48,216 nt of DNA from an uncultured Bacilli bacterium (GTDB lineage Bacteria; Bacillota_I; Bacilli_A; RF39; UBA660): positions 1-48,216 of the forward strand of contig CANQFD010000001.1 of NCBI GenBank assembly GCA_947598325.1, written 5' to 3'. A program made the translations under genes and the position numbers. The notes below the pieces were generated by a model. That model made no database searches. It was not told where the DNA came from and saw nothing but the letters and a program-made list of their open reading frames with translations. Below, in pieces: positions 36,023 to 43,227 of the stretch; position 1 is the first letter of the stretch, and each line of letters opens with the position of its first letter.

Positions 36023-36754
36023 ATGCAGGATGATAAATTCAAAAGAATTTTATTTATATATTCAATAATAATTATATTAACTGCTATAATTTCATTAATT
36101 GTTGTAATTTTATTTGTAGATTCAAAACAAAAAGGATGCTTAAAAAATAAAGATATATCTAATATACATATATTAAAAAACAATAATGTAAATAAAAAAA
36201 TTAAATTTGAAGGTAAAATATCGAAGATATTATATAAAGAAAATATAACAAAAATATATATTAATAAAAACAATATTAAAATGGTGATAAATTATGAGGG
36301 TAAGAAAAAATTTAATACTTTAGATGTTATTATAGTGGATGGAATTATTAAAAAAACATCTAAAAAAGATAAAAAAATATATATAAATTCAAATAAAATA
36401 TATAAAATTAATACAAAAGAGCATAAGTATAATATAAATGAAAAAATTAATAAAAATCATATTATTATAACGATTAAACAGGTAATTTTTTTACCTAAAG
36501 AAACGATGATTTTTTTAAGAGTTGAAAATAATTCAAATATAGATTTTAAATTATATTCACATTCATCAAAGATTTATCAATTAAATAATGAATATAATAC
36601 TATATATTCTATTAATGAGATAGATATACCGTCCATAATTTCAAAGAATAATAACTATGATGGTGTTATTGTATTTTCAAATATTTCAATACTACCTTTT
36701 AAATTGTTAATAAAAAGTAACAGTAATGATTTTATTTTTGATATTAATATCTAA
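36023..36754 (+). CDS. hypothetical membrane-anchored protein, 243 aa
   Basis: Has AGGAGG and a start 22 bases after the ZIP gene, so probably cotranscribed with it. A short cytoplasmic tail (MQDDKFKR) is followed by one transmembrane helix (about 9-34). The rest is exposed and beta-rich, with a possible OB-like first half (KKIKFEGKISKILYKENITKI). The second half (IIITIKQVIFLPKETMIFL onward) resembles immunoglobulin-like DUF4352 domains in pattern only. No lipobox is present. Function unknown. Confidence 0.7.
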   Translation: MQDDKFKRILFIYSIIIILTAIISLIVVILFVDSKQKGCLKNKDISNIHILKNNNVNKKIKFEGKISKILYKENITKIYINKNNIKMVINYEGKKKFNTLDVIIVDGIIKKTSKKDKKIYINSNKIYKINTKEHKYNINEKINKNHIIITIKQVIFLPKETMIFLRVENNSNIDFKLYSHSSKIYQLNNEYNTIYSINEIDIPSIISKNNNYDGVIVFSNISILPFKLLIKSNSNDFIFDINI

Positions 36755-38234: not shown

Positions 38235-38444
38235 ATGGATATTGAATTTGAATCAATAAATGATTTGTATAATAGGGTATTACCTGCATTAAGAACAAAA
38301 AAAAGAGAGTTTCAAAAAAAAGGCGTGTTTATTTTAGAAAAAGAATTATTTAATTATTTAATCAATACAAAATGGTCTAAAATAAACAATTTATCATTAA
38401 ATCAAATTGTTAATGATATATTAAATTATAATGGAAATATGTAG
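38235..38444 (+). CDS. comN: ComN-like post-transcriptional regulator
   Basis: A 69-residue protein starting at the ATG after AAGGTG (a GTG inside that site is rejected). It matches the short helical ComN/YrzD family: LYNRVLPALRTKKREFQ, then ILEKELFNYLINTKW and LSLNQIVNDIL. In B. subtilis ComN controls comER-related competence mRNA and binds DivIVA; yrzD lies upstream of secDF exactly as here. It is 15 bases from secDF. Confidence 0.8.
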   Translation: MDIEFESINDLYNRVLPALRTKKREFQKKGVFILEKELFNYLINTKWSKINNLSLNQIVNDILNYNGNM

Positions 38445-38459
38445 TAGGAGGATGAGAGT

Positions 38460-41063
38460 ATGAATTTATTAGTTGTTATTATATTAGCTTATCTATTATT
38501 TTGTTTTGTTGTTTCTAAAATATTTAAAAAAGGAGATATAAAAAGTATTTTTGCATATATTCCTATATATAATATAGTTATGCTATCAAAATTATGTAAT
38601 TTTAAATGGTATTATATATTTGGTCTTATAATATTCCCAATAAATATATGGTTTTATATATATTTAAATATAAGATTAGGAAAGGCTTTTAATAAAAGTA
38701 ATGCGTTTATTGTTTTAATGATATTATTTCCAATTATATTTTATATAATTTTAGCATTTGATAAAAGTGAATATAGCATTTCAAATATACCAGAAAGTAA
38801 AAAATATAAATTTATTAGTGTATTTGTTTGTATATTATCAATTACTGTAGCATCAGTTTGTTTAATACCTTATATATTCAATAATATTACAAAAGGTCTT
38901 GATTTAGCTGGAGGATTTGAAATATTATACCAAATTAGTAGCTCAGAAGAAGGTAAAAAAGTATCAAGTGAGGAAGTAGAAAATACATATCGTACTATGC
39001 TTCGTAGAATTGATAAATTAGGTGTATCAGAACCAGAGCTTTTAATTGAAGGACAAGATAAAATAAGAGTAAAATTAGCGGGTGTTACTAATCCAGATGA
39101 AGCTAGAGATTATATAACAGTAGCTGGCGAATTATCATTTAGGGATAGTAGTGATAATAAACTTATGGATAAATCTGTTTTAGCAGATAGTGGTGCTAAA
39201 ATATCACAGGATGAAAACGGTAATCCAGCAATATTATTAAATATTAAAGATAAAGATAAATTTTATGAAGTAACTAGTGCTATTAGTCAAACTGAAGATA
39301 AATTAATAGTTATTTGGCTTGACTTTGATAAATCAGAAGGCGATAGTTATGCATCAACTAAGGATAGTTGTGGAGACTTTGAAAATGTAAATGATACAAA
39401 ATGTTTATCTGCTGCAACAGTTAAAGAAGGATTTAGCAGTAATGTAATTATTCAAGGTAATTTTACTGATGAACAAGTAAAGACTTTAGTTGATCTAATT
39501 AATTCAGGTTCAACAAATGTTAAATTTAAGGAAATATCATCAAAAACAGTTGGATCAGAATTTGGATTTGATTCTTTAGAAAAGACTCAAATAGCAGGTA
39601 TAATAGGAATATTATTAATTATTATATTTATGATTTTTGTATATAGATTTTCAGGATTGATAGCGTCTATGTCAATACTTCTATATACATTTGCTGTATT
39701 CTTAATATTCTATTTAATTGAAGGTGTTTTAACTCTTCCTGGTATTGCTGCTTTGGTTCTTGGTATTGGTATGGCTGTTGATGCATGCGTAATAACATCT
39801 GAAAGAATAAAAGAAGAATTAAGAAAAGGAAGAACATTAAAAACAGCTGTTATTAATGGTAATAAAAATTCATTTAGTTCAATATTTGATTCAAATATAA
39901 CAACACTTATAGTTGCAATTATATTATTTGCATTTGGAGAAAGTTCAGTAAAGGGTTTTGCAACTATGCTTATTATAAATATAATCATGACAATGCTTAT
40001 AATTATATTTATTAATAGATCAATAATGAAAGCATTTGTTAATACTAAAATTTTTGATGATAAGGCAAAATTATTCGTAAATTATGATAAAAATAAAAAA
40101 GAAAAAGAATTTAAATTCAATTTTGTAAAATATTTTAAAAGATTTGTATCAGTTCCATTAATTATCTTTGTTTTCGGTATAGTAATTATGATTACTAGTG
40201 GATTTAATTTTGGTATTGATTTTACTGGAGGATCAGATATATCAATAGTGACAGATCAAAATGTAAACTTAACTGATATTAAAAAAGATATTAAAAAATT
40301 AAATCTTAAACTATCTGATATAAATAAAGCAGATGATAATACTATATATGTAAAAGTAGATGAGGTACTAGATGAAAATAAAGTTAGAAGTACATCTAAA
40401 TATTTTGAAGAAAAATATAATTCAAAAACTGAAATATCTGTAGTATCTAATGTAGTTAAAAAAGATTTAATTAAGAATGCAATTATTTCATTATTATTTG
40501 CATTTGTGGGAATAATTATGTATATTTCATTTAGATATAAATTTAGTTATGCCTTAAGTGCTGTACTTGCTCTTTTACATGACGTGTTTATAATAATTTG
40601 TTTATTTGCAATATTCAAAATTGAAATAAGTTCTATATTTGTTGCAGCAATACTAACTATTGTTGGATATTCAATTAATAATACAATAGTTATATTTGAT
40701 AGAATTAGAGAAAATGTAAAAAAATATAGTAAAAATATAAGACCATCTAAGGATGAACTATCTGTTATAGTAGATAAAAGTGTAAAAGAAACTTTATATA
40801 GATCTATTAATACTACTACAACTACAATGCTTCCAATTATTATGCTTATATTTATTGGTGCAAAAGAAATATATACATTTGATATAGCTATTTTAATAGG
40901 ATTAATTGCGGGTGCATATTCATCAATATTTATATCATCTCAATTATGGCTTAAAATAGAATATAAATTATCAAATAAAAATAGTAAAAATAAAAATACT
41001 ACTAAAAAGAAAGTTCCAAAAAAGAAACCAGAAGAACTAAATGTTAAAGGAATCAATTCATAA
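38460..41063 (+). CDS. secDF: SecDF protein translocase subunit with extra N-terminal DUF5684-like domain
   Basis: An 867-residue protein; SecDF fusions are usually about 740-760. Residues 1-105 form a separate helical membrane module (FAYIPIYNIVMLSKL, WYYIFGLIIFPINIW, and ILAFDKSEY) that resembles DUF5684. SecD follows: a first helix at about 119-142, KGLDLAGGFEILYQ, a periplasmic-type domain, and GIGMAVDACVITSERI with Asp441. SecF follows: GIDFTGGSDI and GYSINNTIVIFDRIREN. At 741 Asn stands where E. coli SecF has Asp213, a residue linked to proton use. A Lys-rich tail ends it. It drives late steps of secretion using the proton gradient. Confidence 0.93.
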   Translation: MNLLVVIILAYLLFCFVVSKIFKKGDIKSIFAYIPIYNIVMLSKLCNFKWYYIFGLIIFPINIWFYIYLNIRLGKAFNKSNAFIVLMILFPIIFYIILAFDKSEYSISNIPESKKYKFISVFVCILSITVASVCLIPYIFNNITKGLDLAGGFEILYQISSSEEGKKVSSEEVENTYRTMLRRIDKLGVSEPELLIEGQDKIRVKLAGVTNPDEARDYITVAGELSFRDSSDNKLMDKSVLADSGAKISQDENGNPAILLNIKDKDKFYEVTSAISQTEDKLIVIWLDFDKSEGDSYASTKDSCGDFENVNDTKCLSAATVKEGFSSNVIIQGNFTDEQVKTLVDLINSGSTNVKFKEISSKTVGSEFGFDSLEKTQIAGIIGILLIIIFMIFVYRFSGLIASMSILLYTFAVFLIFYLIEGVLTLPGIAALVLGIGMAVDACVITSERIKEELRKGRTLKTAVINGNKNSFSSIFDSNITTLIVAIILFAFGESSVKGFATMLIINIIMTMLIIIFINRSIMKAFVNTKIFDDKAKLFVNYDKNKKEKEFKFNFVKYFKRFVSVPLIIFVFGIVIMITSGFNFGIDFTGGSDISIVTDQNVNLTDIKKDIKKLNLKLSDINKADDNTIYVKVDEVLDENKVRSTSKYFEEKYNSKTEISVVSNVVKKDLIKNAIISLLFAFVGIIMYISFRYKFSYALSAVLALLHDVFIIICLFAIFKIEISSIFVAAILTIVGYSINNTIVIFDRIRENVKKYSKNIRPSKDELSVIVDKSVKETLYRSINTTTTTMLPIIMLIFIGAKEIYTFDIAILIGLIAGAYSSIFISSQLWLKIEYKLSNKNSKNKNTTKKKVPKKKPEELNVKGINS

Positions 41064-41079
41064 AGAGGGATTTATAAAA

Positions 41080-43227
41080 ATGAATAATAAGGAAATTAAT
41101 ACATTAGAAGAATTATTAAAAACGGTTAAGACATATATAACCGATGAAAGTGAAATAGATACAATTAAAAAAGCATATGATTATGCTTCTAATATACATA
41201 AGAATCAAAAAAGATTATCAGGTGAAGATTATATTCTTCACCCTCTTAATGTCGCATATATATTGACTAGTTTATATGCAGATAGTGATACTCTTTCAAC
41301 TGCATTACTTCATGATGTAATACATAAAGGAAATGCAAAAATAGAGGATGTAAGGAATATATTTGGAGATGAAATAGCAAATTTATTAGAAGGTATAACT
41401 ACAATAAATCGTTTAAATATATCAGTTGAAAGTGAAAATCTAATTAATTACCATAAAAAAATATTAGTTGGTCTTACTGAGGATGTTAGAATAATAATTA
41501 TTAAAATTGCAGAACGTGTTCATAATATGAGAACTCTATGGGCAATACCAGAAGAAAAAAGAAGTGAAAAAGCAAAAGAAACACTTGAAATACTTGCTCC
41601 TATTGCACATAGATTAGGACTTTCTTATTTGAAAGCAGAGCTAGAAGAATTATCACTTAAATATTATAAACCAGAGGCATTTAATTCTGTAGAGGAGTTA
41701 CTTGATAATACAAAAGATGAGAGAGAAAAGTCAGTAGAGGAAATGAAAAAAAGAGTATCTGATATACTTCTTGAAAATTCTATATCTTTTGAAATAAAAG
41801 GTAGAGTTAAAAGTATATATTCAATATATAAAAAGTTACAAAAAGGTAAGAAATTTAGTGATATATATGATATATATGCACTTAGAGTAATAGTAGATAC
41901 CATTCCGCTTTGTTATCAAGTGCTAGGACTTATTCATTCTAAATATAAACCACTTCCAAAGAGATTTAAGGATTATATATCAAATCCTAAAACTAACATG
42001 TATCAATCTCTTCATACAACTGTTTTTGGATTTGATGGTAAACCTTATGAAATTCAAATTAGAACACCTGAAATGGATAAGCAAGCAGAAAGAGGAATTG
42101 CATCACATTGGTCTTATAAGGAACAAGGTAAGAAAATTCAAGTATCTATGGAGCAAAAACTTCAAGCATTTAGAAATATAATAGAATTAAATGAAGAAAA
42201 ATTATCAGATGAAGATTTTGTTAAGTCTGTTAAAGATGATGTTTTAGGTGATAATATATATGTATATACACCATTAGGAGATGTATTTGAACTTCCAGAA
42301 GGATCAACCCCAATTGATTTTGCATATAGAGTTCATACTAAAATAGGAGAAACGATGGTAGGTGCTATTGTAAATGATAATATCGTTCCTTTAAATACAA
42401 AACTAAAAACAGGGGATATTATAAAAATAAATACAAATAAAAATTCTTCCCCTTCTAAAGAGTGGATACAAATAGCAAGAACAAATAGTGCAAGGAATAA
42501 AATAAGGGCATATTTTTCTAAAATAGATAAAGAAGAAGCAATAGAAAAAGGTAAAGAAGCAATTGCTAAAGAAATTAGAAGAAAAAAACTTTCAATGGAT
42601 ATTATAAATAATAATATAGATATAATATTAAAAGAATTAAAATTAGATAGTGAAAATGATATATATCTTAATATTGGTACAGGAAAATTCTCATCAAATT
42701 CTGTAATAAATATAATACTTAGAGAACATGAAAATAGAGAAGAATTGGCAGTTAATAAATTAAATAAGAATATATATATTTCAAATAACACAAATAATGA
42801 TATATTAGTTGATGGTATAGATAATATAAAGGTATCTTTAGCTAATTGTTGTAAACCTGTTAAAGGGGATGAAATAATTGGATATATATCAAGAGGAAAT
42901 GGAATAATTGTACATATAAAAGATTGCAGAAATGTTAAAAATATGAATAATAGATTAATAAATGTTTCTTGGAATGACAATATAGATAGTAAATTTCAAA
43001 CTAGAATTAAAGTTTATGCTGATAAAAAAGAAAACTTACTTCTTGATATAATTACAAAAATATCTAATTTAGATATTAATATACTAAATGTTAATACAAT
43101 TTATGAAATAGATAGTGTAGTATATGATTTGGTTATAAATGTTAATGATCTAGATAATCTAAATAAATGTTTAGTTGTGTTAAAACAAATACCTAATATA
43201 ATTACAGTAAAAAGATATTATGCATAG
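41080..43227 (+). CDS. rel: RelA/SpoT-family (p)ppGpp synthetase Rel with degenerate hydrolase motif
   Basis: A 715-residue long RSH protein. Start is the ATG 9 bases after GAGGGA; an ATG at 41041 lies inside secDF. The hydrolase domain keeps His54 and His78-Asp79, but the HDxxED motif reads HDVIHK (78-83) and the later metal Asp is Glu145 (KIAERVHNM). The synthetase domain looks intact: GRVKSIYSIYKK, DIYALRV, the RFKD charge motif of bifunctional enzymes, MYQSLHTT, and YEIQIRTPEMDKQAE. TGS, zinc finger-type (NCCKPVKGDE, HIKDC) and ACT domains complete it. Predicted to make (p)ppGpp and to be weak or inactive as hydrolase. Confidence 0.94.
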   Translation: MNNKEINTLEELLKTVKTYITDESEIDTIKKAYDYASNIHKNQKRLSGEDYILHPLNVAYILTSLYADSDTLSTALLHDVIHKGNAKIEDVRNIFGDEIANLLEGITTINRLNISVESENLINYHKKILVGLTEDVRIIIIKIAERVHNMRTLWAIPEEKRSEKAKETLEILAPIAHRLGLSYLKAELEELSLKYYKPEAFNSVEELLDNTKDEREKSVEEMKKRVSDILLENSISFEIKGRVKSIYSIYKKLQKGKKFSDIYDIYALRVIVDTIPLCYQVLGLIHSKYKPLPKRFKDYISNPKTNMYQSLHTTVFGFDGKPYEIQIRTPEMDKQAERGIASHWSYKEQGKKIQVSMEQKLQAFRNIIELNEEKLSDEDFVKSVKDDVLGDNIYVYTPLGDVFELPEGSTPIDFAYRVHTKIGETMVGAIVNDNIVPLNTKLKTGDIIKINTNKNSSPSKEWIQIARTNSARNKIRAYFSKIDKEEAIEKGKEAIAKEIRRKKLSMDIINNNIDIILKELKLDSENDIYLNIGTGKFSSNSVINIILREHENREELAVNKLNKNIYISNNTNNDILVDGIDNIKVSLANCCKPVKGDEIIGYISRGNGIIVHIKDCRNVKNMNNRLINVSWNDNIDSKFQTRIKVYADKKENLLLDIITKISNLDINILNVNTIYEIDSVVYDLVINVNDLDNLNKCLVVLKQIPNIITVKRYYA

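Follow-up and report, generated by a model that had tools for sequence, protein, structure and literature searches.

Does the SecDF protein of an uncultured Bacilli bacterium carry an extra membrane domain in front of SecD and, if so, what does this domain do at the Sec translocon? The question was raised by a stretch of 48,216 nt from contig CANQFD010000001.1 (assembly GCA_947598325.1), hereafter the window, where an initial annotation had seen a DUF5684-like module at the N-terminus of SecDF. We found that a complete DUF5684 module and an otherwise ordinary SecDF form one polypeptide, joined by a short polar linker (Table 1). The fusion is real, clean and of a single origin, and the resulting SecDF variant is new.

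Table 1. Features of the secDF region, in window coordinates.
Feature	Coordinates	Strand	Basis
Gene for a ComN-like post-transcriptional regulator (PF13797), 15 bases 5' of secDF	38235..38444	+	
Shine-Dalgarno sequence AGGAGG, 8 bases 5' of the secDF ATG	38446..38451	+	Sequence; similar sites in 18/18 complete fused genes
secDF, 867 aa, with N-terminal DUF5684 module	38460..41063	+	ORF; secD and SecF models over cut-off; SecDF relatives in the PDB
DUF5684 module, residues 1-105	38460..38774	+	PF18936 at residues 32-105 (38553-38774); helix 1 at residues 3-24; AlphaFold2
Short polar linker into SecD helix 1, residues 106-113	38775..38798	+	Sequence and predicted secondary structure
First transmembrane helix of SecD, ~residues 114-137	38799..38870	+	Sequence; helix in the model from residue 114
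SecDF core, from GLDLAGG (residue 146) to the C-terminal end; contains Asp441	38895..41063	+	Sequence; alignment with solved SecDF
relA/spoT gene, overlapping the 3' end of secDF	41041..43227	+	

PF18936 (DUF5684) was the sole Pfam domain above cut-off in the N-terminal stretch. Searched with the module alone, it aligned over profile positions 3-78 of 81 with 49 bits (cut-off 27.4, E 9.6e-13), and in a search of the whole genome (G000) the module scored 48.9 bits, with a single further DUF5684 found, on G000:C5. The separate helices with IPIYN and ILAF-type motifs that had been described for residues 1-105 were located, in a hydrophobic module with IPIYN at residues 34-38 and ILAF at residues 97-100. 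When five fused copies were aligned with 22 of 30 stand-alone DUF5684 proteins (L013, L015, L020, L024, L027, L028, L030 and L001 were omitted), the landmarks KxFKK, IPIYN, PxN, LxKxFxK and ILAF-Y followed one another in the same order and nearly without gaps; together with the profile score, this bears out the assignment to DUF5684. Fused and stand-alone copies thus have the same set of motifs, namely a basic KxFKK after helix 1, IPIYN, P(I/V)N, LxKxFxK and PxIFxxILAFxKxxY. In stand-alone proteins, however, the N-terminus is rich in Tyr, and zinc ribbons or tails are present in some, whereas the fused copy begins directly at helix 1, has its second PxN shifted by about one residue and runs on into SecD. 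All 18 complete fused N-termini matched some stand-alone DUF5684 in BLASTP against a small stand-alone database, with best E values per query from 2.9e-19 to 1.9e-7; hmmscan at E ≤ 0.01 detected PF18936 in 12 of these N-termini and missed it in six. Modules from a second genus (g39) were more diverged than those of the window genus, and nine of its ten (L082-L090, the exception being L081 from G158) contained a hydrophobic insert of ~25 residues, which follows the KWY region and precedes the LxxKF motif. In the literature searched, we found no paper naming DUF5684.

Behind the module, the protein scored over cut-off with the models for secD (TIGR01129, 342.5 bits versus 244.4) and SecF (TIGR00966, 328.8 bits versus 160). 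The best of the full-length SecDF equivalog models, NF009581, reached 730 bits, below its cut-off of 1058, and matched residues 114-850, indicating that the SecDF body is complete and that the module lies outside the model; the shortfall in score suggests that the window SecDF has diverged from the lineage behind that model. As the initial annotation had it, the first helix of SecD is intact after the module; GLDLAGG comes next. The closest solved relatives, SecDF of Thermus thermophilus (3AQP) and the I-form structures 5XAN/5XAP, have the fused SecD-SecF body in common with it, at ~25% identity over the body. Unlike them, the window protein adds ~113 residues of DUF5684 and linker before the SecD helix, and their match begins only at its residue 142-143. 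Asp441, invariant across a 34-row alignment, aligned with the Asp of the GxAVD motif in solved SecDF (VD of chain 5xan_A). In PMC9508474, the conserved transmembrane Asp of SecDF is assigned to proton coupling; Asp441 corresponds to it by the 5xan_A alignment.

AlphaFold2 modelling of residues 1-114 with 17 relatives (mean pLDDT 87.5, pTM 0.74) predicted one full helix at residues 3-24, followed by helices 29-33/35-45, 51-58/63-76 and 81-89/91-100, with breaks at or near conserved prolines. The model of full-length SecDF was only fair (pLDDT 72.5, pTM 0.58) and does not show how the module sits against SecDF. No solved sequence relative of the module was found in the PDB. An Oxa1/YidC-like reading was considered and dropped, because searches among PDB and viral models returned no fold relatives. 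Since the first helix of SecD begins in the cytoplasm, the C-terminus of the module should be inside. Four stand-alone proteins fit an N-out/C-in orientation: L001, in which a signal-peptide-like start and a domain come ahead of helix 1, and L007, L008 and L019, in which zinc ribbons follow the module. Charge counts were ambiguous, with basic loops at both 21-34 and 74-82, and residues 81-100 resemble a full span. We infer that the N-terminus of the module is outside and its C-terminus cytoplasmic, an orientation in which it could be joined to SecDF without upsetting the topology of the latter.

To follow the distribution of the fusion, we read 19 loci from the two genera, of which 18 were complete and one (L091) was a contig-edge fragment starting inside SecD. 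The module was present in all 18, so that the fusion is indeed common to relatives, a point on which the initial annotation had asked for a check. It occurred in eight of eight genomes of the window genus (frames of 862-880 aa) and in ten of 12 genomes of g39 (882-921 aa), the other two giving the edge fragment and no match. Within the family, SecD was over cut-off in 74 of 145 genomes. The N-termini of 73 of these SecDFs, examined with a simple hydropathy window (L179 from G015 was excluded, as the pattern gave no frame), comprised three with the module (G000, G105 and G038), six with one extra helix (G022, G081, G123, G052, G018 and G140) and 64 with the SecD helix only. Many of the SecD-negative genomes were more than 90% complete; about half of the family seems to have lost SecDF or to have a version too diverged to be recognised.

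Wider searches used a profile of the 18 N-termini, which would miss distant independent fusions, on samples of the order, class and phylum that overlap one another. In the order (385 genomes, 117 genera), the fusion was found in 11 genomes of the two genera and, among the rows listed, in no other genus. At class level (395 genomes, 193 genera, E ≤ 1e-8) it appeared only in G000 and G038, and at phylum level (392 genomes, 155 genera, E ≤ 1e-10) only in G000. A scan of named contigs yielded 18 loci (L101-L118), all metagenome-assembled, with titles naming Bacilli, Erysipelotrichaceae, Bacillales, Clostridiales or Clostridia and indicating gut or rumen samples, for instance from deer, sheep, goat, cattle and buffalo; 17 of them overlap genomes already counted and so add no independent evidence to the 18 fused genes. 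One query for DUF5684 on viral contigs returned none, and a literature search for SecD or SecDF fusions with extra N-terminal helices gave nothing relevant among the records listed.

In trees of the SecDF core, built without the N-terminus from 45, 51 and 49 rows (the last set with eight of the 18 fused proteins), the fused SecDFs formed one clade with 100/100 support, and FastTree with 88 rows placed them in one split with support 1.0. L091, also left out of the module counts, and the truncated L049 were excluded from the trees, and L114, a partial sequence identical to L113 over 993 bases, from the alignments. Because the fused proteins form one clade, the fusion most simply arose once, with no loss in any complete member seen.

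Seven SecDFs from a different clade carry one extra N-terminal helix and a basic stretch before SecD helix 1 (L032, L048, L130, L147, L150, L156 and L180, from G022, G081, G289, G123, G052, G018 and G140, respectively); in the wider-sampled trees, the plain SecDF L159 nests among them. Homology of this helix to helix 1 of the module was not supported by an HMM built from helix 1 of the 18 fused proteins, a comparison of low power in which the scores of L032 (-9.0) and L048 (-4.8) were reached by 95 and 74 of 200 shuffles, respectively. Likewise, a sister relation between the two clades, seen at 96/90 with 51 rows that included five one-helix SecDFs, was gone with wider sampling: FastTree with 88 rows did not recover it, and in IQ-TREE with 49 rows of our own choice the plain SecDF L182 adjoined the DUF5684 clade (87/96). 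With the sister relation gone, the DUF5684 module and the single helix look like independent additions.

Is the module, then, more than a passenger? We estimated dN/dS for the 14 pairs that differed least at synonymous sites, many of them near saturation, and obtained values of 0.17-0.81 for the module and 0.10-0.42 for the core, below 1 in each pair. For the five least saturated pairs (L115/L116, L115/L117, L116/L117, L109/L110 and L103/L106), the ranges were 0.17-0.38 and 0.10-0.24, respectively. The module is therefore constrained by purifying selection, which is weaker than that on the SecDF core. The best surviving alternative, unlikely but to be taken seriously, is passive accretion, with the module as an extra membrane anchor or an aid to SecD folding or stability that has no translocation role of its own. 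Its faster evolution relative to the core agrees with this, as do the confinement of the fusion to two genera, the weaker PF18936 match and the insert in the second genus, and the addition of a single helix at the same place in an unrelated lineage. A mere passenger is harder to reconcile with dN/dS values that all fall below 1, with nine module residues (M1, Y11, L12, F16, K24, P35, F77, P91 and L98) invariant in all 18 complete members and with a frame that is unbroken in every one of them.

The remaining DUF5684 genes that we read in the family code for separate proteins, which are often extended by zinc-ribbon, low-complexity or secreted parts. In G000, the single further copy (G000:C5:7198-7446, L001) lies C-terminally in a 269-aa protein that also has a helical-looking domain and what looks like a signal peptide. 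Apart from the fusion, DUF5684 helices had been described as standing alone or next to signal peptidase-like proteins; the separate proteins agree with the first part of this statement, but the second was not supported in the family. Among the matches listed for the 145 genomes, compared by eye, Peptidase_S26 lay within 2 kb of DUF5684 only in G037 (G037:C39, ~1.5 kb apart with two ORFs between), and the S26 frames, of 159-223 aa, were never long enough for S26 plus DUF5684. G000 (89% complete) gave no Peptidase_S26 match, versus 134 of 145 genomes with one in the family sample, perhaps through incompleteness of the assembly. A 130-aa protein from a Haloarcula plasmid (AUG49543.1; L125 2411-2803) is annotated as 'signal peptidase I', although DUF5684 is its only Pfam match; the label is thus a naming artefact, which accounts for some of the link between DUF5684 and signal peptidase. 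Fusions of DUF5684 with LepB may occur in Bacteroidota.

These stand-alone genes bear on a second, less likely alternative, in which the fusion recruits SecDF to non-Sec partners of DUF5684, such as envelope assembly proteins. Secreted or zinc-ribbon parts and varied gene contexts would suit such partners, and no Sec gene was recognised beside the stand-alone copies save the one S26 case; on the other hand, no partner is known and we saw no conserved neighbour among the stand-alone genes read.

In the window, secDF is preceded by a spoVB-like flippase gene and the ComN-like gene and followed by relA and dtd. Five fused loci were read, with neighbours identified by eye from their resemblance to the window genes: relA- and dtd-like genes followed secDF in all five, the flippase preceded it in four, and a 72-aa ComN-like ORF lay between flippase and secDF in two. 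Further upstream in the window (36023-36754), between a ZIP transporter gene and the spoVB-like gene, lies a gene whose 243-aa product has a hydrophobic segment at its N-terminus and matched nothing in Pfam at E ≤ 0.01. At locus L116, tgt directly precedes secDF; in E. coli, this position is held by yajC.

YajC has one helix, as against several in the module, in which no PF02699 (YajC) match was found, so that the two have no sequence relation; their likeness is one of role, by analogy, as a small accessory membrane part of SecDF, and of the tgt position in L116. According to PMC5095914 and PMC9508474, E. coli SecDF works with YajC and YidC around SecYEG, and SecDF-YajC is described as part of the holo-translocon (PMC5095914). 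PF02699 was over cut-off in none of 42 family genomes, fused and unfused, versus seven of 14 controls. A pairing of YajC loss with the fusion was rejected, YajC being absent from both kinds of genome alike; since unfused relatives also lack it, its loss alone does not call for the module. That YajC persists as a diverged separate gene, leaving the module unrelated to its role, is very improbable: sub-threshold PF02699 matches do occur in six of the 42 genomes, but in frames of 182-582 aa, which are longer than YajC. Finally, a mis-called start, such that SecDF would begin within or behind the module and the latter would be untranslated or belong to a gene of its own, can practically be dismissed, as no point in its support was found, no in-frame ATG, GTG or TTG occurs in the window gene from codon 88 up to SecD helix 1, leaving no usable start near residue 110, where the initial annotation had considered one, and all 18 complete fused genes of both genera have a frame open across the module and a Shine-Dalgarno-like sequence ahead of the module's own start, a strong one in the window gene.

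From the fusion by itself, it is reasonable to infer that the DUF5684 module works with the Sec translocon, as first proposed. Because it was inherited once, retained and constrained there, the module probably acts at SecDF, at the N-terminus of the proton-driven motor of the translocon. Our preferred reading, held tentatively and at somewhat less than an even chance, is that the module is an obligate accessory membrane subunit of SecDF in cis, oriented N-out/C-in at the SecD side of the translocon and perhaps YajC-like. As such, it would belong to the assembly of SecDF, SecYEG and YidC, on the SecD side, where it might help to keep SecDF at the translocon or to position it there, or to take up chains as they emerge, and it would accompany SecDF much as the separate subunit YajC does elsewhere. 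The YajC-like role is a guess by analogy, which fits the lack of YajC, though unfused relatives share that lack. Counting against an accessory subunit are the faster evolution of the module relative to the core and the failure of PF18936 to detect it in six of 18 members. A broader scheme strikes us as improbable: that in this family, in which YajC is not recognisable, the SecD N-terminus has repeatedly been a landing site for membrane helices, the DUF5684 module in one case and a single helix in the other, each replacing YajC, and that stand-alone DUF5684 proteins elsewhere in bacteria and archaea are overlooked Sec accessory factors.

As the fusion shows, whole membrane domains can be accommodated at the N-terminus of SecD. 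As SecDF is a protein of known function, its fusion to DUF5684 also provides a concrete lead to the function of this family, one that is testable in standard secretion assays.
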